A DNA stretch of 31,463 bases. Source: Candidatus Eiseniibacteriota bacterium. Lineage in GTDB: Bacteria > Arandabacterota > Arandabacteria > JAGLYR01. The DNA lies in assembly GCA_023132135.1 (NCBI GenBank), contig JAGLYR010000195.1, positions 1 through 31,463 of the forward strand. The letters are read 5' to 3'. Every line of letters starts with the position of its first letter. Within the stretch, counting starts at the first letter, position 1. The notes below the pieces were generated by a model that was not told where the DNA came from, did not search any database, and worked only from the letters and a program-made list of their open reading frames with translations. The position numbers were made by a program, and so were the translations under genes. Shown here piece after piece: positions 7,022 through 31,463 of the stretch.

Positions 7022-8386
7022 ATGCATGCTGGAGGAACCCTTGTGATTGGGGTATCCGGGGTGCGGGGCGTTGTGGGGCATGGACTGACCCCGGATGTGG
7101 CCGCCCGGTTTGCATCCGCCATGGGCTCCTTCTGCCGGGGCGGCCGGGTGATTGTGGGCCGGGACACGAGGCCGTCGGGCGAAATGCTCCGGCACGCCGT
7201 GATCTCCGGATTGCTGGCCACAGGCTGCGAAGTGATCGACCTCGGGGTTTGCCCGACGCCCACGGTACAGCTGGCTGTCCGGGAGCGGGGCTCTGCCGGG
7301 ATCATCATCACGGCTTCCCACAATCCGGGGGAGTACAACGGGCTGAAGTTCGTCTCGACGACCGGGATTTTCCTGACAGCAGAGGAGGGCGCCGAGCTCC
7401 GGGCCATCTTTGACGCTGATCGCTTTGCCTACATAGGCCATCAGCCGCCAGGGGATGTAAGTATGGACGGCGAGGCGGCGAAGCGCCACGTGTCGATGGT
7501 CCTGGGTCTTTCGGTCCTTGACGTCCCTCGCATCCAGGCGCGAAAATTCAAGGTGGTCCTGGATCCCGGCAACGGGACAGGCGTGGTGGTGGCCCTCCCT
7601 GTCCTGGAGGCCCTGGGTTGTGAGGTGGTGCTCGTCAATGCAGAACCGACGGGGATTTTCTCCCGGGGTCCCGAGCCGATTCCGGAGAACCTGGGCGATC
7701 TGTGCAAGCGGGTTGTCAGCGAGGGAGCCGACGTAGGGTTCGCGATAGACCCCGACGGAGATCGCCTGTCCATTGTCACCGAGCAGGGTGTGGCCATTGG
7801 GGAGGAATTCTCAATGGTTCTGGGTGCGGATCTGGTGCTGTCGCGGGCCGGAGGCGGCGTCGTTGTCACGAATCTGTCTACCTCCCGGATGGTGGACAGG
7901 GTTGCGGAGCGGTGGGGTGGACACGTGTCTCGGACGCCCGTCGGGGAGGTGCACGTTTCCCTGGAGATGATGGCAAAGGACGCGGTGTTTGGTGGTGAGG
8001 GAAACGGCGGAGTGATTCTCCCCGAAGCGCACCTGGGCCGGGACGCGTCGGTGGGATTAGCTCTGGTGCTGGAACTCCTTGCGGACCGGCGGTGTTCAGT
8101 GTCCGAGGCGCGGGCATCCCTTCCCCACTACACGATGATCAAGACGAAGGCCCGCGTGGATCGTGGATTAGGCGATCGTCTCCTTGAGGTTCTCGCTCCC
8201 CTGGTGGAAGGGGGCAGGATAGAGAAGTCCGATGGGGTAAAGATCAGTTGGGACGATGGGTGGTTGCACGTCCGCAGTTCCAACACCGAACCCATCGTCC
8301 GGGTTGTTGCCGAGGCGGAACATCGGTCTCGGGCCGAAGCGCTGGTGGAGGAAGCCCTGCATCTTCTCAGCCAAGGGAAAACATAG
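7022..8386 (+). CDS. glmM: phosphoglucosamine mutase (alpha-D-phosphohexomutase family)
   Basis: 454 aa. It interconverts glucosamine-6-phosphate and glucosamine-1-phosphate on the route to UDP-GlcNAc for peptidoglycan and LPS. The four family landmarks are present: phosphoserine loop TASHN (97-101), metal loop DPDGDR (243-248), sugar loop GEGNGG (325-330) and phosphate-binding loop RSSNTEP (418-424). The sugar loop GEGNGG resembles archaeal-type mutases more than the usual GEQSGH of bacterial GlmM, so sequence alone would also allow a phosphomannomutase/phosphoglucomutase. The adjacent glmS 30 bp downstream argues for GlmM. ATG 7022 has GGGAG 8 nt upstream. GTG 7043 has an even better GGAGG 7 nt upstream and would start MIGVSGVRG, so the true start is uncertain by seven codons. 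Confidence 0.87.
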   Translation: MHAGGTLVIGVSGVRGVVGHGLTPDVAARFASAMGSFCRGGRVIVGRDTRPSGEMLRHAVISGLLATGCEVIDLGVCPTPTVQLAVRERGSAGIIITASHNPGEYNGLKFVSTTGIFLTAEEGAELRAIFDADRFAYIGHQPPGDVSMDGEAAKRHVSMVLGLSVLDVPRIQARKFKVVLDPGNGTGVVVALPVLEALGCEVVLVNAEPTGIFSRGPEPIPENLGDLCKRVVSEGADVGFAIDPDGDRLSIVTEQGVAIGEEFSMVLGADLVLSRAGGGVVVTNLSTSRMVDRVAERWGGHVSRTPVGEVHVSLEMMAKDAVFGGEGNGGVILPEAHLGRDASVGLALVLELLADRRCSVSEARASLPHYTMIKTKARVDRGLGDRLLEVLAPLVEGGRIEKSDGVKISWDDGWLHVRSSNTEPIVRVVAEAEHRSRAEALVEEALHLLSQGKT

Positions 8387-8416: not shown

Positions 8417-10246
8417 ATGTGCGGAATCATCGGGTATGTCGGTGGCTCCTCGGCCGAACCGATCCTGGTGGAAGGACTCAGGCGACTGGAGTACCGGGGC
8501 TACGACTCCGCCGGTCTTGCGATATGCAACGGGGGGGTCCTCACGTGTACCAAAGTGGCCGGGAAGATTGCCCGGTTGGAGGAGGAGATCGACGGGAGGG
8601 AGCTGCCGGGGCAGTGCGGCATCGCCCACACCCGCTGGGCCACTCACGGACCTCCCACCCAGGACAACGCCCACCCCCATACGGATTGCTCTGGCAAGAT
8701 AGCGCTGGTTCACAACGGCATCATCGAGAACTACGCCTACCTGAAGGATACCCTCGAGAAAGAGGGTCATGTGTTCACCAGCGAGACGGATTCAGAAGTC
8801 CTGGTGCACCTGATCGAGAAGTACTTCAAGGGTAATCTGGAATCGGCGGTACAGCAAGCGCTTCAGTGGGTCACCGGAACCTACGGGATCGGCGTGGTTG
8901 CCGTGGATGATCCCGGCAAGATCGTCGGCGCCCGGAACGGGAGCCCGCTGGTGGTGGGAATCGGGAATGGGGAGTATTTCCTGGCCTCCGATGTCCCGGC
9001 TATCCTGAGGCATACGCGGCAGGTCATCTACCTGGACGATCAGGAACTGGTTGTTCTTACCAAAGATGGTCTGCGGACCAGCACCATTGCCGATAACGAG
9101 GCCGTGACCAAGATCGTGCAGGAGATTTCCTGGGACGTGGATCGGGCCGAGAAGGAGGGCTATGCCCACTTCATGCTGAAGGAGATCTACGAGCAGGCGC
9201 GAACGGTGAGCGACGCCATTTCCGGCCGCACTGTCCAGGACGATGGGACGGCCCGGCTCGGGGGTTTGAATCTGACCGACGAGCAGCTCCGCTCGACAAA
9301 GCGGGTTATCATCACGGCCTGCGGGACTTCCTTCCATGCCGGGCTTATCGGGGAGTACATGTTGGAGGAGTGGGCCCGGATCCCCGTGGAGGTGGAGTAC
9401 GCATCCGAGTTCCGATACCGCAACCCGGTGATTGAGGATGGAACCCTCTGTATCGTCATATCCCAGTCCGGAGAAACGGCCGACACACTGGCGGCAATGC
9501 GGGAGGCCAGACGTCGCGGCGCCCGGGCCTTGGGCATCTGCAATGTCGTGGGCAGCATGATTGCCCGGGAGGCGGATGGAGGAGTGTACATCCATGCCGG
9601 GCCCGAGATCGGCGTGGCTTCCACCAAGGCCTTCACATCCCAGGTGGTGGTGCTCTCCCTTATCACCCTGCTTATGGGACGGATGCGTCACATGTCCGTT
9701 GCAGACGGCCAGAGGACCATTGCTGCACTGAGGGCTCTGCCCGGCCAGATCCAGACCATTCTGGAACAGGCCGATGAAATCAAGAGGATTGCCAAGATCT
9801 ACTGTGAGCATGACAACTTCCTCTATCTCGGCCGTGGCTGCAACTACCCGGTCGCGCTGGAGGGGGCCCTCAAGCTGAAGGAAATCAGCTACATTCACGC
9901 GGAAGGATACCCGGCGGCGGAGATGAAGCACGGTCCCATTGCCCTTATCACGAAGCACATGCCGGTTGTGGTGATCGCCACCAAGGATAGTGCCTACGAG
10001 AAAGTGATGGGGAATCTGTCTGAGGTCAAGGCACGGCGGGGACGCATCCTCGCCATTGCCACAGAGGGAGACAGTGAGATCAAGAACCACGCGGAGCATG
10101 TCTTCTACATACCGCCCACCCTCCAGGCGTTGACGCCGGTCCTGAGCGTTATTCCTCTCCAATTGCTGGCGTACTACATCGCGGTCATGAGGGAATGCAA
10201 TGTGGACCAGCCGCGAAACTTGGCGAAGAGTGTGACCGTAGAATAG
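8417..10246 (+). CDS. glmS: glutamine--fructose-6-phosphate aminotransferase (isomerizing)
   Basis: 609 aa, the normal length. It makes glucosamine-6-phosphate from fructose-6-phosphate and glutamine, the first committed step of amino-sugar synthesis. The amino end MCGIIGYVG exposes the catalytic Cys after Met removal. The class-II glutaminase domain fills about residues 1-225 (HTRWATHG, HNGIIENY). Two SIS isomerase domains follow, with ITACGTSFHAG, SQSGETADTL, ASTKAFTSQ and EMKHGPIALI. The C terminus QPRNLAKSVTVE is the hallmark GlmS tail. ATG 8417 has AAAGGGGG about 8 nt upstream. It sits between glmM (30 bp gap) and ridA (13 bp gap). There is no room for a glmS ribozyme upstream. Confidence 0.97.
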   Translation: MCGIIGYVGGSSAEPILVEGLRRLEYRGYDSAGLAICNGGVLTCTKVAGKIARLEEEIDGRELPGQCGIAHTRWATHGPPTQDNAHPHTDCSGKIALVHNGIIENYAYLKDTLEKEGHVFTSETDSEVLVHLIEKYFKGNLESAVQQALQWVTGTYGIGVVAVDDPGKIVGARNGSPLVVGIGNGEYFLASDVPAILRHTRQVIYLDDQELVVLTKDGLRTSTIADNEAVTKIVQEISWDVDRAEKEGYAHFMLKEIYEQARTVSDAISGRTVQDDGTARLGGLNLTDEQLRSTKRVIITACGTSFHAGLIGEYMLEEWARIPVEVEYASEFRYRNPVIEDGTLCIVISQSGETADTLAAMREARRRGARALGICNVVGSMIAREADGGVYIHAGPEIGVASTKAFTSQVVVLSLITLLMGRMRHMSVADGQRTIAALRALPGQIQTILEQADEIKRIAKIYCEHDNFLYLGRGCNYPVALEGALKLKEISYIHAEGYPAAEMKHGPIALITKHMPVVVIATKDSAYEKVMGNLSEVKARRGRILAIATEGDSEIKNHAEHVFYIPPTLQALTPVLSVIPLQLLAYYIAVMRECNVDQPRNLAKSVTVE

Positions 10247-10674: not shown

Positions 10675-10772
10675 GGGAGTGGACGGGTTCTGGTGGACCT
10701 CCAGGACTTCAAATCCTGATGTCGGGCGCTAATCCCGTCCGAGGTGGGTTCGATTCCCACACATTCCCGCCA
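10675..10772 (+). tRNA. selC: tRNA-Sec (anticodon TCA), selenocysteine tRNA
   Basis: A 98-nt gene with the special shape of bacterial tRNA-Sec. The long acceptor arm is GGGAGTG pairing with CATTCCC plus a further G-A position. The 6-bp D stem is GGGTTC with GGACCT closing a TGGT loop, the anticodon stem CAGGA/TCCTG has loop CTTCAAA, and a long variable arm includes CGGG/CCCG. The T arm is GTGGG/CCCAC with loop TTCGATT, followed by discriminator G and encoded CCA. The molecule reads UGA as selenocysteine and needs SelA, SelB and SelD, which are not in this window. It lies 4 bp after ridA and may be processed from the same transcript. Confidence 0.93.
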
Positions 10773-23938: not shown

Positions 23939-25327
23939 CTAGTCCGTTCCCTTGAATCTGTCTTTCATCCTGGTCCACGTTATGGCGTCCACCCCTGACG
24001 CTCCGCCTCCGCATGGGCATCCCACCCCGAACGCCCCAACCTGCCCGCAGCCGTATCCGTCAATGCATGGAGAACACTCCTGGAGCTGGAAGCACTCGCC
24101 GTCTGAATCGCAGAAGAGTGGATCCTCGGAGAAGTTGCCGGTGCTCCCCGGCTGATTCGACGGGCATCCTGCCCAGTCGCCCCCCGCGTTACCGTAGATG
24201 TCGGAACAGGTGAGACTGAGCCCCGTCACAGACTCGTCACAGCCGATGCCTTCCCCTTCTGTGCTGAAGACAATGAGCGTGTTCACGATCTCGGGTGAGG
24301 ATCCCAGATCGCACCAGATCCCGCCGCCATCGGGGGCCGAGTTCCCGCAGAGAGTGCAGTGCCGGAGGGATGGGGAACCGTTCCCGCAGTACATGCCCCC
24401 GCCCCAGACGGCCGAGTTGCCTGCCAGGAGGCACTCGGTCAGGAGGGCGGAAGACTCGTAGCACCAGATCCCGGCTCCCTGGAAGGCGGTATTGCTGGCG
24501 AACGTGCACCGGGTCAGTACGGGTGAGGATGAGAAACATTGCACGGCGCCGCCCAGGTGCGCCGAGTTGCCGGTGAACGCACAGCGGGTCAGCTGGGGAG
24601 AGCCGGATGGGTAGCACCAGATCGCGCCACCGCCCATGTCCGCCAGGTTCTGGTCGAATACGCAATCGGTGAGTGAGGGGGATGACTGGCTGCAGCTGAT
24701 CCCGCCCCCGTAGTATCTCACGGACTCGTTGCCGCGAAAGGTGCATTCGGTAAGGAGAGGTGCGGATTCGTGGAGGAAGACAGCGCCGCCGGCGTCGTAG
24801 GCCGTGTTGTCCAGGAACCTGCACCGGGTGAAGGTGGAAAAGCACTCCCGCGCGTAGATCGCGCCGCCGCTGTACCAGGTTGTGTTGTTCGTGAAGATGC
24901 AGTCGGCGAAAGTGGGCGAGGCCTCCCAGCAGTAGACGCCTGCGGCATTCTCACTTCGAAACGCGCCGGTGAGGGTAATCCCCTCGAGCACTGATTCCGG
25001 TCCCTCGCCGGACTGGAAGTAGAACCCGCGGTGCTCATATCCGGGGCCGGCCTCGCAGTCGATGATGCACGCCTTGGGATTCCCGCTCCGGGACCGGAGG
25101 GTGATGGCCTTGCCGAGGAAGTCGATGTCCCGGTTTCCGTCGCCGGTGAACGTGCCGTCGGAGAGCTCGATCACGTCGCCGCCGGTGGCTGCGGCGATGG
25201 CGTCCTGGATTGTCGGGAAATCCCCAGTGCCGTCAGGTTCAATGAGATAGACAGCGGCGATTGCGGGGGAGGAGAAGACCGCGACCGCAACGGCCGCCGC
25301 TGTCAATATGTTGAGAAGGCAATTCAC
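23939..25327 (-). CDS. secreted right-handed beta-helix repeat protein
   Basis: 462 aa. A signal peptide (about 1-25, ending SSPAIAA) is followed by YLIEPDGTGDFPTIQDAI, the usual opening of bacterial parallel beta-helix proteins. From about residue 115 to 360 a repeat of 23-24 residues recurs, with pattern SSPxLTxCxFxxNxAxxGGAI, about ten turns, as in Pmp-like (chlamydial polymorphic outer membrane protein) repeats. The C terminus is Cys/Gly-rich (CSPCIDGYGCGQVGAFGVGC), then GVDAITWTRMKDRFKGTD. The start is a GTG at 25327 with only a weak GGGA ahead. It has no catalytic motif that I can see; adhesin or surface carbohydrate binding is a guess. Confidence 0.85.
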   Translation of the reverse strand: MNCLLNILTAAAVAVAVFSSPAIAAVYLIEPDGTGDFPTIQDAIAAATGGDVIELSDGTFTGDGNRDIDFLGKAITLRSRSGNPKACIIDCEAGPGYEHRGFYFQSGEGPESVLEGITLTGAFRSENAAGVYCWEASPTFADCIFTNNTTWYSGGAIYARECFSTFTRCRFLDNTAYDAGGAVFLHESAPLLTECTFRGNESVRYYGGGISCSQSSPSLTDCVFDQNLADMGGGAIWCYPSGSPQLTRCAFTGNSAHLGGAVQCFSSSPVLTRCTFASNTAFQGAGIWCYESSALLTECLLAGNSAVWGGGMYCGNGSPSLRHCTLCGNSAPDGGGIWCDLGSSPEIVNTLIVFSTEGEGIGCDESVTGLSLTCSDIYGNAGGDWAGCPSNQPGSTGNFSEDPLFCDSDGECFQLQECSPCIDGYGCGQVGAFGVGCPCGGGASGVDAITWTRMKDRFKGTD

Positions 25328-26771: not shown

Positions 26772-26811
26772 AGACGTGAGCGAGCCGTAAGGCCGGCCAT
26801 CACGTTTTCCC

Positions 26812-26853
26812 CTATTTCCGATTTTCTATTGCCTGTTGCCTATTTTCTCTTTG
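26812..26853 (+). repeat. heptamer tandem repeat block (CTATTKY, six units)
   Basis: Six 7-bp units in a row vary around CTATTTC/CTATTGC. They lie in the gap after the methyltransferase gene. Confidence 0.7.
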
Positions 26854-26871
26854 GCATTTCGGTTTGCCGGC

Positions 26872-26934
26872 CAGACATAGACAAATGGTGCCGGTGACCA
26901 GCACAACACAATCAGATATGGACAGATGGTGCCG
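26872..26934 (+). repeat. 22-bp direct repeat, two copies
   Basis: The copies at 26872-26893 and 26913-26934 match at 19 of 22 positions and share ATGGTGCCG at their ends. They lie 41 bp apart, start to start, in a non-coding stretch of about 290 bp (26772-27059) in which I find no gene. Confidence 0.65.
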
Positions 26935-27059
26935 AAAAGATACACAATAAGTTAATAAAGCTAACTACGTCCCGGAAAGCCTGCCCTGATAAGGGTTCCG
27001 TCCAGGTCCGCCATGAACACGAATTGCTTCATCTGTTTCGCCTTCGTCTATTTGGGTCT

Positions 27060-27127
27060 TGCCAACGCGAACATCACCAGTGGGTGGGCCGGTCCGGCCC
27101 GCACATCTGGTGAATGTAGTGTTACGC
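27060..27127 (-). other. degenerate attC-like site closing the cassette array
   Basis: Core-like boxes TGCCAAC (27060-27066) and GTTACGC (27121-27127) flank an imperfect palindrome. TCACCAG and CTGGTGA are equidistant (7 bp) from the boxes, and the centre GGGCCGG/CGGCCC is a near-perfect hairpin. Spacing and shape match attC sites, but the boxes deviate from the GCATAAC/GTTATGC pairs seen elsewhere in the array. It lies 58 bp after the helicase stop. Confidence 0.5.
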
Positions 27128-27185
27128 AAGTCCCGTGCCACCCTTCCCGAGCCTGCAATGCCCTATACTCGCCACTTCACCAGAC

Positions 27186-28214
27186 TCAATTCGCGTGAGA
27201 TGTCATGAGACGCTCTGGGATGAGATATACACTATTCCAAGCACGTGTGCAGGCAACATAGAGCTTATTCCGTGTCTGAGGCTTCAGTTCGTGCCCCTTT
27301 CCCTTCTCCAGCTTCCGCAAGGTTGCGGTATTCAATGCAACCGCAATGTCTTGGTAATCATCACCTTTCGATGCCCCCCAGTTGCAGGATCGACAGCGAT
27401 ACTTCTGATGTGATTGGTAGAATAACTTGACCACTTCATTAGCGTCCTGAATTCGAGTGGCCTCTTCTTGACAGGTGACCCATCGGATGTCCGTGGCATT
27501 TTTCCGATGCGAGGTCATGACAATGCCGAGGTTGTCCTTGACGAAGGAACACAGCGTCGGACTGCATCGATAACTCCGCTCGAGAGTCTGTTTGTCCACG
27601 CTGAAGCCAATGCGCTCAAGGCGCGTGACAAACGCGTCAAGACTCTGGTGGAGGTTCTTGTTCACATTGCCATCCCTGCTAGTGTCGTACGTGTGTTGAA
27701 AGAAGTCACCTACCAGACACATGTCGACATGGCTGCTCGCTAGCTGCGAGAGAAGATTGAAGTCATGCCCAGCGAAATCCTGGACCTCGTCAATCAGCAG
27801 CGCGTCGAAGTACTTCTCAATTCGTGCTTGCACCTGGCCCAATACGTTTTCCATCTCGAGTAACTTCGCCAACCGATTGTGGTATACTCTCCGCTTCTCG
27901 TCGAAGTAGTATAGTCTGTTATCTCTCCGCTTCGTACGAGTCCACTGTGGGGGCATCCCCCATCTCATACCCCGTGGTCTGGTGTCCCTCCATAGAAACG
28001 GTCTGAAGCAGAATGAGTAGAGAAAGGTGAAGTAGGAGCTCAGCGTGACATGCTTTGGGAAGACCCCAAACTCCTTGATGATCTTGCGACGCAGGTTCGC
28101 GAGGTTGTTCTCCGTATACGTAATGACGAGAGAGGGCCTGCCATCACGGAGCCTGCGCACGATGCTGGTGGTCTTGCCTGACCCAGCGACAGCGAGAATT
28201 ACTCTCTTATCCAT
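27186..28214 (-). CDS. compact UvrD-like SF1 helicase (GajB-like)
   Basis: 342 aa. SF1A helicase motifs are all recognisable: Walker A AVAGSGKTT (8-16), motif Ia TYTENNLANL, motif II LLIDEVQDF (139-147), motif III LVGDFFQHTY, motif IV LERSYRC (211-217), a motif V-like GASKGDDYQDI (280-290) and motif VI LYVACTRA (318-325). It is much shorter than Gabija GajB (about 490 aa) or UvrD, so the 1B/2B inserts must be reduced. Its ATG at 28214 overlaps the end of the OLD-nuclease gene by 16 bp, so the pair is translationally coupled. Helicase following an OLD-type ATPase/nuclease is the Gabija arrangement; I infer an anti-phage role. Base composition is visibly lower in GC than the genes left of 26771. 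Confidence 0.85.
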   Translation of the reverse strand: MDKRVILAVAGSGKTTSIVRRLRDGRPSLVITYTENNLANLRRKIIKEFGVFPKHVTLSSYFTFLYSFCFRPFLWRDTRPRGMRWGMPPQWTRTKRRDNRLYYFDEKRRVYHNRLAKLLEMENVLGQVQARIEKYFDALLIDEVQDFAGHDFNLLSQLASSHVDMCLVGDFFQHTYDTSRDGNVNKNLHQSLDAFVTRLERIGFSVDKQTLERSYRCSPTLCSFVKDNLGIVMTSHRKNATDIRWVTCQEEATRIQDANEVVKLFYQSHQKYRCRSCNWGASKGDDYQDIAVALNTATLRKLEKGKGHELKPQTRNKLYVACTRAWNSVYLIPERLMTSHAN

Positions 28215-29764
28215 GCTATGGCATCCGCGAAGTAGCGTGGCGGCTCAAGCTCATCGGCCTTGTGCAGCAGCAGTGCAAAGGCAGCTTCGGCTTTGTTTCC
28301 TAGCATATACTCCTGGACCGTGAGCGTCCGCCTTGACGCAGCGAAAAGCGCATCACAGACTGGCGCATTCTGCGCATAGAGCGAAATCTCAAATGTGCGC
28401 TTTTCGTTATCGCTTTCTGAGAATACCTGTATGTTGGCGCCCGTGTATTCTGCGAATCCTTCGACGCAGTTCTGTTGGTAGTTGCCGTCATTGTCTCGCA
28501 CCACCGCTGTCTTGATATCAAGCAGGACCGCAAGCTCTAGGTATCGTTTGAAACTCGTGCCTCCGACTGAAATGATATGAGTGTTGGAGTCCTCGCTTGC
28601 ATGACCAGTGATCTTTTTGAAGAACGCCTCGGCTAAGATGTATTCAGCATCACCTTCGACCAAGATAACTCGCTGGGAGAGGATGAACTCAAGAACATTG
28701 CTGCTTGGGGCTTTCATAAAGAATAAGGCTGTGTCCTCCGTGAGGTTATCCAACAGAGCCACCGCAGTGTTGTTGCTGTTGAGGAGTAGGCACTTGCGTA
28801 GGTCAAGCCGTGTCGAGATAAGGCTGTTGTGAGTCGCGATCACAAGCTGTTTCTCGGTGCGCTCGCGAATCATCCCAATAAGTCGCTTCATATTGACGTG
28901 GCTGAGGTGATTTTCTGGTTCCTCCATGAGCAGTATGTCGATAGGAGCTGAAGACCGCGATCTATTCAGAGCGAACGCTGTCTTGATGAAGCACTGCTGC
29001 CCGCGACCTTTGTTCTGAATGGCTATTCCCTCTTCTGCAATTGTTAGATCAGACTCGAGTGTGGCTTTTCCGGTAGTGCGGAGGACAAAGTCGTACCTCT
29101 CAACTCTATCGTTGAGCTCTCTAAGCACGTCGGCTTGGAAGCTCTCCTTATGGCGGCGGTATTCGTTACTGTGCTTACTCTTCTCGGTTCCCTGAACATG
29201 AGCGAGGTATAGGTCTTTTATATATTCTCGTGTGGCGTATTCATTGTTGATATGGGCGCTGTCGATGTGAACATGCCGGACTGGCCTGTTGTATGCAGCA
29301 TAGGGCTTTCCGGAGAAGGTATTGAAAGTCACCTCATAGTACTCAAAGGGAAAGGCGGAGGAGTCATCAGCGAGAATCGCGGCGATATCGGCCGAAACCA
29401 GATAGTTCGGCGAGCAGACGAGCTGCACGCCATCACATGCGCGTCCCTCTGAGTTGTTCGTGCCGTTGAGATCGGGGTCGTTCTGCTCGTCGAGGTATAG
29501 TTCAACGGATAGGAGGGGGAGGTCTTCTATTCTCCGATCTGACTCCAAAAACGCTTCAATTGCGGCTGAATTGAATAGGGATTCCAGGCCGAGCGTTTCG
29601 ACCCGCGTTCTACTACCACCAAGGGTCAAATCGACAGCAAGCAGAATCGAGCTTTTGCCTGATTCGTTGTCTCCAATCAGGACGTTCAGATCCGGGCTGA
29701 AACGCGCTTCAAGTGTCTGGAAACGCTTGAAGTTGCATAGCTTGATTTTCTGCAGGACACCCAT
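28199..29764 (-). CDS. OLD-family ATPase/TOPRIM endonuclease (GajA-like)
   Basis: 521 aa. The ABC/SMC-like ATPase comes first: Walker A GDNESGKSS (31-39), a signature-like NKGRGQQCF (251-259), Walker B DILLMEEPENHLS (276-288) and switch His in THNSLIS (H312). The TOPRIM nuclease follows: VEGDAE (E370), RDNDGN (D424, D426), TFE (E459) and GNKAEAA (K491), the set expected of an active OLD nuclease. The length is close to GajA of Gabija (about 580 aa). ATG 29764 has AGGA 4-5 nt upstream and lies about 90 bp after the attC core that opens this cassette. Alternatives are another OLD class-2 pair or a housekeeping DNA-repair OLD; the coupled helicase favours defence. Confidence 0.88.
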   Translation of the reverse strand: MGVLQKIKLCNFKRFQTLEARFSPDLNVLIGDNESGKSSILLAVDLTLGGSRTRVETLGLESLFNSAAIEAFLESDRRIEDLPLLSVELYLDEQNDPDLNGTNNSEGRACDGVQLVCSPNYLVSADIAAILADDSSAFPFEYYEVTFNTFSGKPYAAYNRPVRHVHIDSAHINNEYATREYIKDLYLAHVQGTEKSKHSNEYRRHKESFQADVLRELNDRVERYDFVLRTTGKATLESDLTIAEEGIAIQNKGRGQQCFIKTAFALNRSRSSAPIDILLMEEPENHLSHVNMKRLIGMIRERTEKQLVIATHNSLISTRLDLRKCLLLNSNNTAVALLDNLTEDTALFFMKAPSSNVLEFILSQRVILVEGDAEYILAEAFFKKITGHASEDSNTHIISVGGTSFKRYLELAVLLDIKTAVVRDNDGNYQQNCVEGFAEYTGANIQVFSESDNEKRTFEISLYAQNAPVCDALFAASRRTLTVQEYMLGNKAEAAFALLLHKADELEPPRYFADAIAWIRE

Positions 29765-29854
29765 TTCCTGTCCCTCATTCTTCTACCGGCAAGGCGCACC
29801 CTATCTTGCCACTGGAGGCGTCTCAAGGGCACAACCCATGCGCTTGGTTTGCGA

Positions 29855-29914
29855 GCATAACGCCCAGCATCAGCGGCGGCGCGAAGCGCCGTTCGCTGCA
29901 TGCTGCTGTTATGC
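29855..29914 (-). other. integron attC recombination site (60 bp)
   Basis: The inverted core boxes GCATAAC (29855-29861) and GTTATGC (29908-29914) are exact mirror copies. Between them an imperfect palindrome folds around GGCGC-GAA-GCGCC. On the minus strand it follows directly after the 173-aa gene and ends GGGCGTTATGC, the usual right end of attC sites. Confidence 0.88.
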
Positions 29915-29936
29915 GACCGCCCGGTCGACCTTGCCA

Positions 29937-30458
29937 TCAGATATCCACTCGCTTGCCTTCCGCCATTAGGCTGAGCGCTTCCTGCTCTGAGAGCACCTTG
30001 CGTCCGAACAGCTTCGCGAGCAACTGACTCAACGACTCCGTCATACCCGACAACACTGTATGCGCCAAACTCAGGGACCCTTGAATCTCGCGGATTTCGG
30101 CAATCATGGTCTTCCGGCCTTCCACCGAGTGGATAGCGAAGTTGTGCTTCCGAAAGAACTTGTGCGTCAGGTAGTTTCGTTTATCCAGCGCGTCGTTCAC
30201 GGTAGCGATAATGCTGTCATCAATCTGTCCCATTCTTCGGAGCTGCCGAAACAGATTGCCGAAGGTGCATTTGTTTACATCATGAACTAGCGCTCGGAAG
30301 AACTCTCGCTGTTCGTCCGTGATCTTGGACGTGTCAAGGAGCATGGTTGCATAGACCAAAGCGAGGTTTCCGGCTTCCATCTCCATCACCTGTGCCATCT
30401 CAGCAGCTCGTCCGAACTCGTAGTAGAGCTCTCGCAGGTCATCTGGGCAACTGGTCAT
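29937..30458 (-). CDS. HEPN-like helical protein, putative RNase/toxin
   Basis: 173 aa, predicted almost entirely helical; I do not recognise a named family. The stretch LDKRNYLTHKFFRKH (about 91-105) holds R94-N95-x3-H99. This fits the HEPN ribonuclease rule R-x(4-6)-H with a polar residue after Arg. ATG 30458 has GAGG 4 nt upstream and lies only about 20 bp after the preceding cassette core site; the TGA stop lies 22 bp before its own attC. The gene is thus a typical single-gene integron cassette. No nucleotidyltransferase (MNT) antitoxin is adjacent, so it is either self-sufficient or not a classical HEPN/MNT toxin. RNase function is inference from one motif. Confidence 0.7.
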   Translation of the reverse strand: MTSCPDDLRELYYEFGRAAEMAQVMEMEAGNLALVYATMLLDTSKITDEQREFFRALVHDVNKCTFGNLFRQLRRMGQIDDSIIATVNDALDKRNYLTHKFFRKHNFAIHSVEGRKTMIAEIREIQGSLSLAHTVLSGMTESLSQLLAKLFGRKVLSEQEALSLMAEGKRVDI

Positions 30459-30478
30459 CCGGCCTCGACCTCAGGTGC

Positions 30479-30577
30479 GCATAACGTTGGTTTCACCTGC
30501 AAAGACGGCTTGGCGCGAGCCGTGCGCCAGCACGGTGCGTGCCAAATGGCTTTGTCAGGTGCAAGCTCTTGTTATGC
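30479..30577 (-). other. integron attC recombination site (99 bp)
   Basis: The core boxes GCATAAC (30479-30485) and GTTATGC (30571-30577) are exact mirror copies and identical to those of the 29855-29914 site. The arms pair as TTTCACCTGC with GTCAGGTGCAAG, with GGCACG-type pairing nearer the centre. The TAA stop of the Abi_C gene lies inside the first box on the minus strand, as is common in tight cassettes. Confidence 0.87.
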
Positions 30578-31402
30578 TTTCTTCTTCTCCAGGTTGTCTA
30601 ACAACAACGCTGACAGCGTCCCAATAAACTCGATCGCTGCCGAGATCTCGCCTTCTTCCAAGTCTGGCAACCAAGGGCGTCCATGTCCGGTCCCCTGCTT
30701 GTTTCGAAGGTTATTCACCGCACAGGCGGTCTCATACATTCCACGTTGCAGCCTTGCCCTTGGATGATCCCCTTGTTGTGGCTTCTGTTCGGGCGTTGCC
30801 ATGTCCAAGGCTACAAAAGCCTGACCCAAAAGAGCAGGAAAATTCGCGGTCGTAGGATATTGCCCCCACACCTCTTGAATAACGTGTGCCGCCACTGCCT
30901 CCATAAGATCCTTACTTGTGCCAACCACAAGGGCGCCGTCCTCGATGCCCTTTTTTGCTCTTTCTACGTAACCACGGAGTGCACTTGTTAGCCGTTTTCC
31001 CGAAAGAGATTCGAGTGCCACCGGTGACACAGATCCGTCCTGGCCAAGGACAACACCAAGTGGCTTGATCGCATCGGAAAGATTTCGAACCGAGTCCGCA
31101 CCGACGAAGTTCGGAGAACTTTCGCGAAACCCTCCACAACTCCTCACAGTTGCAATGAGACCGGTGGCGAAAACTTCTGCTTGCTGAGGGGAATGTTCCA
31201 TCGCCCAGTTAAGAATTATTCGAACACGCTTAGACTTCCCAACTGGCGGTCCCAACTTGTTCGGGTCCGCTCCCTCAAGTTTCGCACGCTTGATCTGAAA
31301 CTCGATATCTGAGTGGCTGGGATCACGCCTTTCGGACTGGGCGTCATCGACCAGTCTCGCCAGGGCGTAGACCACAGTGTCATCAATGGGGATTTTACTC
31401 AT
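30572..31402 (-). CDS. abortive-infection family protein with Abi_C-like C-terminal domain
   Basis: 276 aa from ATG 31402 (MSKIPIDD); GTG 31417 would add five residues. The C-terminal part ACAVNNLRNKQGTGHGRPW (about 226-244), followed by a helix (AAIEFIGTLSALLLDNLE), is the pattern of the Abi_C domain of abortive-infection proteins. It contains R233-N234-x5-H240, which also satisfies the HEPN R-x6-H rule. The amino-terminal 200 residues are helical and not recognised. It is the only gene of its cassette: a GTTATGC core lies about 25 bp upstream of its start, and its attC overlaps its stop. I infer a host-sacrifice defence by RNA cleavage; the trigger is unknown. Confidence 0.78.
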   Translation of the reverse strand: MSKIPIDDTVVYALARLVDDAQSERRDPSHSDIEFQIKRAKLEGADPNKLGPPVGKSKRVRIILNWAMEHSPQQAEVFATGLIATVRSCGGFRESSPNFVGADSVRNLSDAIKPLGVVLGQDGSVSPVALESLSGKRLTSALRGYVERAKKGIEDGALVVGTSKDLMEAVAAHVIQEVWGQYPTTANFPALLGQAFVALDMATPEQKPQQGDHPRARLQRGMYETACAVNNLRNKQGTGHGRPWLPDLEEGEISAAIEFIGTLSALLLDNLEKKKA

Positions 31403-31426
31403 CACCTCACTTGCCACCTTCTCTTA

Positions 31427-31463
31427 GCATAACTATGAGTATCTTGTTCCGTATAAGACCCCC
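31427..31463 (-). other. partial attC site at the window edge
   Basis: GCATAAC at 31427-31433 (GTTATGC on the minus strand) is identical to the core boxes of the two complete attC sites. It lies immediately upstream of the Abi_C cassette. The rest of the site runs past the end of the window, showing that the array continues to the right. Confidence 0.65.

Follow-up and report, generated by a model that had tools for sequence, protein, structure and literature searches.

Organization of the locus

We analysed contig C107 (31,463 nt; hereafter the window, meaning this whole stretch) from the draft genome of a Candidatus Eiseniibacteriota bacterium (G000; 3.4 Mb in 345 contigs, 96% complete), to which the contigs C228, C282 and C218 discussed below also belong. 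The contig is chromosomal and carries rpoD, dnaG and lepA. Near its right end, the minus strand from position 31433 down to 27060 holds four open reading frames (ORFs) that in all likelihood form an integron cassette array, made up of an Abi_C gene, a gene for a 173-aa HEPN-type protein and a two-gene Gabija system, each cassette ending in an attC site (Table 1). There is one gene or operon per cassette, always on the minus strand and with its 3' end at its attC, in agreement with the original prediction, which had been made from the letters of the sequence.

Table 1. Features of the predicted cassette array in the window
Feature	Position	Strand	Description
attI-like sequence	31434..31463	-	GGGGGTCTTATACGGAACAAGATACTCATA, then G at 31433; upstream of cassette 1; contig end
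Cassette 1	30485..31432	-	948 bp, from G^TT at 31433/31432 to the next R' at 30485; cores 31427-31433 and 30479-30485
Abi_C gene	30572..31417	-	281 aa from the listed GTG, or 276 aa from an in-frame ATG five codons downstream
attC of cassette 1	30479..30577	-	99 nt, GCATAAC...GTTATGC, 7/7 R pairs; fold z -5.8
Cassette 2	29861..30484	-	624 bp; 5' boundary confirmed by the Nitrosomonas homologue
173-aa HEPN-type gene	29937..30458	-	invariant R94-N95-x-L97-x-H99; AlphaFold2 (AF2) model all-helical, pLDDT 75.7
attC of cassette 2	29855..29914	-	60 nt, 7/7 R pairs, one extrahelical base in L''; fold z -4.6
Cassette 3	27066..29860	-	2795 bp, two-gene Gabija by profile match
GajA	28199..29764	-	521 aa, ATPase with OLD-like TOPRIM; PDLC00102 4e-109, PF20469 1.6e-18, PF13175 3.3e-18
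GajB	27186..28214	-	342 aa, short UvrD-type helicase; PDLC00148 3.2e-54 (residues 1-332), PF00580 1.1e-8
Last attC (cassette 3), best reading	27060..27127	-	R'' GCGTAAC ... R' GTTGGCA; fold z -5.9

The GC content of the cassette genes is 0.51-0.53 versus 0.60-0.63 for rpoD, dnaG, lepA and the other genes of the contig, and their GC content at third codon positions is likewise below that of their neighbours. The four cassette genes end in TGA, TAA, TGA and TAA, whereas the neighbours mostly use TAG, so the differences in composition and stop usage noted earlier are real. The block is read as imported because of its GC content of 51-53% against about 61%.

Cassette 3 carries gajA followed by gajB, which overlap by 16 bp and match the PADLOC Gabija profiles nearly full-length. 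The pair had been described as an OLD nuclease with a UvrD helicase, and these domains are indeed present; on the profile matches, however, it is a Gabija system and is better named so. It resembles the PADLOC Gabija in having both subunits in order, in overlapping genes, and differs from it in the length of GajB, at just 342 aa, and in being packaged as a single attC-bounded cassette.

The product of cassette 1 has a C-terminal PF14355 (Abi_C) domain (2.4e-10; 40.8 bits versus a curated cut-off of 24), and its plasmid relatives are annotated as 'abortive infection family protein'. Its C-terminus, LRNKQGTGH, as read from the sequence, fits the Rx6H form of the HEPN motif; an AF2 model of the protein alone (pLDDT 37) gave no usable structure. 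In the cassette 2 protein, R94, N95, L97 and H99 (RNxLxH) are invariant in an alignment of six homologues, down to 22% identity. The HEPN superfamily motif is Rx4-6H with a polar residue (N) after the arginine (PMC3710099), a pattern that the 173-aa protein satisfies. It also matches phrog_12893 (3.2e-18), a phage protein family without assigned function, while a search for the 173-aa protein in viral contigs found none. A Foldseek search with the model returned nothing at E <= 0.001, and the HEPN assignment, which the motif supports, is based on this motif and not on the fold. The contents of the cassettes (an Abi_C protein, an RNxLxH family and Gabija) are thus of the defence type, as originally proposed.

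attC sites and cassette boundaries

The heptamer GTTATGC or its complement GCATAAC occurs six times in the window, where 1.3 occurrences are expected, and none of 100 shuffled sequences reached six. Five of the six are the core boxes named in Table 1, all within 29855-31433, and the palindromes that they flank fold beyond shuffled controls (z-scores of DNA folding against shuffles, all for the plus strand, which is the bottom strand when seen from the genes). The mirror cores pointed out in the original prediction therefore stand. At the 30479 site the bottom strand is the more stable (-33.1 versus -24.4 kcal/mol for the top strand), while at the 29855 site the two strands are about equal (-23.6 versus -24.2 kcal/mol). 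The sites at 30479, 29855 and 27060 are spaced by 0.6 and 2.7 kb; the hairpins of the GTTATGC palindromes vary in sequence, whereas their R boxes are identical. A fairly strict scan for the attC shape, that is, R-box pairs flanking a long hairpin, matched the 30479 and 29855 palindromes in the window and nothing else there. For comparison, the scan had five matches in Markov sequence totalling 2.17 Mb and a single one in other genomic sequence (136 kb). A pattern search of the genome bin for further GCATAAC...GTTATGC sites found none besides this locus, and an Rfam search gave no attC match.

In the last attC of an array, the R' half derives from the target. The site at 27060-27127 had been described as degenerate, as its R' (GTTGGCA) is not complementary to its R'' (GCGTAAC), a mismatch to be expected of a terminal attC. 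The site also folds well (Table 1). Its R'' box pairs at seven positions, one of them G-T, with the R' box (GTTATGC) at the 5' end of cassette 3, and at three positions with its own in-array R', or at four if R' is placed one base away, at 27060-27066. Because R'' pairs with the 5' R' of its own cassette, as it would in an excised circle, the site is best read as the terminal attC of the array and not as a decayed one. The flank at 26772-27066 was compared with the bin and with relatives in search of an empty site, and the comparison returned repeat copies only.

The strongest evidence for the array comes from a metagenome-assembled genome (MAG) of Nitrosomonas, which codes for a version of the 173-aa protein that is 84% identical. 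In the DNA alignment, the similarity begins at the core GTTATGC, and upstream of this point the Nitrosomonas sequence has another gene and another attC, of 68 nt. The sequence comparison thus demonstrates the boundary of cassette 2 independently, and together with the architecture of the locus it upholds the earlier proposal of an integron cassette array. Separate occurrence with the same boundary is demonstrated for cassette 2, and not for cassettes 1 and 3. The attC scan found no attC behind the Nitrosomonas gene. The gene preceding it (L026 1484-2203) encodes a 239-aa cassette protein whose family is unassigned, its match to DUF2880 being insignificant.

Several results weigh against an array of captured defence cassettes. 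No IntI match (TIGR02249) over the cut-off was found in the 96%-complete bin, where the partial matches are Xer-like recombinases. A second genome with the same array was not found, and neither gain nor loss at the locus was seen. A covariance model built here from eight attC sites (R1) gave no significant score: its best match in the window was the 29855 site (12.1 bits, E 0.95), and the 30479 site was not listed. Because this model also missed known attCs, it neither supports nor refutes the assignment. In structural comparisons, the model of the 173-aa protein matched 2hsb (Z 6.5), 8yuf (Z 6.0) and 8xdj (Z 5.8), and this HEPN fold match (Z 5.8-6.5) is level with that of unrelated helical bundles, which tie. 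Finally, the scan showed no attC at those plasmid-borne relatives of Gabija and of Abi_C which were examined. The last result would fit a chromosomal defence island of the ordinary sort, in which the GTTATGC palindromes would be terminators or repeats that have nothing to do with integrons. We regard such an island as very improbable, since the similarity to Nitrosomonas starts at a core box preceded by another gene and another hairpin, the hairpins differ among sites that share identical R boxes, and a fourth boundary matches an attI-like sequence.

Distribution of the HEPN-type cassette gene

Among 125 genomes of the family of the Nitrosomonas MAG, the 173-aa protein was found in that MAG and in one other genome (G263, 33% identity), and in 369 genomes of its class a profile search yielded five. 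The copy in G380 lies in a stretch with five attC-like sites, the G263 copy has an attC in front and the G604 copy has one behind the gene. On a Vibrio alginolyticus plasmid, a copy is part of an array dotted with DUF3265 genes and has a 'putative phage abortive infection protein' close by; this integron context was judged from annotation and visible repeats, as the scan showed no adjoining attC for the Vibrio copy or for those of G511, G596 and Sinorhizobium. With the strict criteria, an attC adjoins four of ten homologues, compared with none of 3000 random segments; with looser criteria, the counts are five of ten and 19 of 3000. These counts are descriptive, because the homologues are not a random sample and the criteria of the scan changed from run to run. 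The locus points to a small HEPN-type family that is often found beside attC sites, and the Nitrosomonas copy offers a sequence-level case of a likely defence cassette that both genomes have in common.

Integrase and attI-like sequences

The original prediction had called for a search for intI and attI. As stated above, the search for an integrase was negative; on the attI side, 30 bp of attI-like sequence lie at the contig end. The contig runs for just 30 bp beyond the last core and ends at the spot where intI would lie, so this gene may simply have escaped assembly. TIGR02249 matches over the cut-off were found in 19 of 145 relatives and in one of seven genomes of the same class (G006). In this integron integrase gene (L027 1126-2160) the reading frame is disrupted towards the end, so that the last ~30 residues are out of frame, and its contig has no clear attC. 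The count of one in seven is the test applied to the earlier remark that a defence-only run would be notable in this lineage.

A special case of the array would be a cluster of attC sites lacking integron integrases (CALIN), in which a trans-acting or since-lost integrase inserted cassettes that are now fixed as an intI-less fossil. We give this scenario close to an even chance, slightly on the lower side. It agrees with the lack of an IntI match over the cut-off in the bin, with the end of a miniature inverted-repeat transposable element 80 bp outside the array and with the finding that bacterial CALINs outnumber complete integrons (PMC9668308). The position of the contig end, 30 bp beyond the first core and where intI would lie, and the intact, fully paired attCs of cassettes 1 and 2 argue against it. 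The three further attI-like loci described next, none of which has intI in the 4.4-6.6 kb examined on the outer side, also favour a CALIN.

The sequence beyond cassette 1, GGAACAAGATACTCATAG^TT, recurs at three other loci of the genome, on C228, C282 and C218. On C228, 30 bp are identical to the window end (14/14 upstream positions and 18/18 of the core), and the 18-nt core AACAAGATACTCAYAGTT is exact on C282 and has one mismatch on C218; a reversed-pattern control gave one match in this genome. Beyond G^TT the four loci no longer resemble one another (5-11 of 30 downstream positions identical), and each continues with a different outward-reading ORF: Abi_C in the window, a 182-aa ORF on C228, a CYTH-domain ORF (4e-17) on C282 (L084 4384-5079) and a 318-aa membrane-like ORF on C218 (L096 1350-337). 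We provisionally call this shared sequence (AACAAGATACTCATAG beside the window end) attI-like; the name is provisional because the scan found no attC at two of the loci, C282 and C218. On C228 (L083 6606-9052), the attI-like sequence is followed by the 182-aa ORF, a copy of the inverted-repeat element described below and a 471-aa ORF without a match in Pfam, PADLOC, NCBIfam or PHROG. This locus is probably a second cassette array in the same genome, because attC-like sites are present at 7490-7555 and 8990-9052.

The shared 18 nt could instead be the conserved half of a preceding attC, the end of a repeat or another motif, in which case the array might run past the contig; we consider this unlikely. 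In its favour, the sequence adjoins GGGGTCTTATACGG in both the window and C228, with an inverted copy, CCGCATAAGACCCC, ~130 bp upstream on C228, and the scan found no attC near the first ORF of C282 and C218. Against it, no complementary attC arm is seen upstream on C228, C282 or C218, the core is kept on C282 and C218 though the flanking repeat is absent there, and all four loci break at G^TT before an outward-reading ORF. If the sequence is attI-like, the genome might have at least four dispersed docking sites (GGAACAAGATACTCAYAG^TT), each at the head of a different cassette or array and no fewer than three lacking an intI in their vicinity, so that one trans-acting integrase could load several loci instead of one. 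We put this forward as a tentative and rather doubtful proposal; if true, repeated attI-like ends would challenge the picture of one attI per integron.

A one-mismatch match to the attI-like core on C168 of another genome (G001) was not counted, as it falls within a long ORF of the opposite strand. The motif TTGACATGGTGCA, considered as a dedicated cassette promoter on C282 and C218, was rejected, as it also occurs at L084:1513, away from any attI-like site. An inverted-repeat element of ~290 bp with 36-nt arms (GGCTTTCCGGGACGTAGTTAGC...) is present at many places in the genome, including L053 993-1284 and 1791-2082, and its end at 26909-26981 of the window is the one that lies about 80 bp outside the array. 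The inverted end of a dispersed sequence, GATCCGCATAAGACCCCTCGCGA (L083 6489-6618; L058 79), is the GGGGTCTTATACGG that borders the attI-like core both here and on C228.

The locus can be pictured as a short array of three imported cassettes with the same orientation: starting from the attI-like end on the right, they carry Abi_C, the HEPN-type protein and Gabija. An integron integrase that used the folded bottom strand of each attC and cleaved at G^TT probably took in the cassettes as circles, and they may still be mobile. As the genes read away from the attI-like end, transcription, if it occurs, would likely be driven by a promoter that lies past the contig end or by the cassettes themselves. 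The cargo probably serves against phages: Gabija, combining the GajA ATPase-TOPRIM nuclease with the GajB helicase, would cut DNA, and the two HEPN-type proteins are predicted to cut RNA and to cause abortive infection, and may thereby act in defence.

Relation to known integrons

Sedentary chromosomal integrons have reportedly been described as defence biobanks by Darracq et al. 2025 (Science eads0768) and Getz et al. 2025 (Nat Microbiol 10:724), and Kieffer et al. 2025 (Science eads0915) are said to have found phage defence encoded in mobile integrons. Like the sedentary biobanks, the present locus has attC-bounded cassettes that carry anti-phage genes; unlike those reports, which concern Vibrio arrays, it belongs to an uncultured lineage and consists of three cassettes, among which one of 2.8 kb carries both Gabija genes. 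Mobile integrons also carry defence genes as cassettes, whereas the window shows no mobile integron backbone and the array lies on a chromosomal contig.

Defence genes as integron cassettes have been published for Vibrio and for mobile integrons (cited in PMC12444791), and the array adds another case to those already described, widening the range of integrons with defence cargo to an uncultured lineage of which very few relatives have been sequenced. CALINs are known in MAGs, including archaeal ones (PMC9668308), and resemble the present locus as attC clusters without detectable intI, often in fragmented MAGs; the difference is the attI-like end, which is visible here beside the array and recurs at three more loci. 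Partial attI sites that replace attC are known in class 1 and class 2 integrons (PMC12901181). The open literature yielded no Gabija cassette, no HEPN cassette family and no repeated attI-like ends in one genome, in a search outside of which subscription papers mostly lay; this silence is a weak sign of novelty.

Other features of the genome

A selenocysteine tRNA gene was identified at 10675-10768 (Rfam RF01852, 70 bits). In addition, three secreted-looking proteins share similar C-terminal tails, which may represent a sorting signal of the lineage: ITWTRMKDRF, TTWGKVKEEF and TTWGHIKSLF. The proteins are encoded at 23939-25327 of the window (minus strand), on C228 (L083 4700-6115, minus strand) and on C282 (L084 3023-4237).

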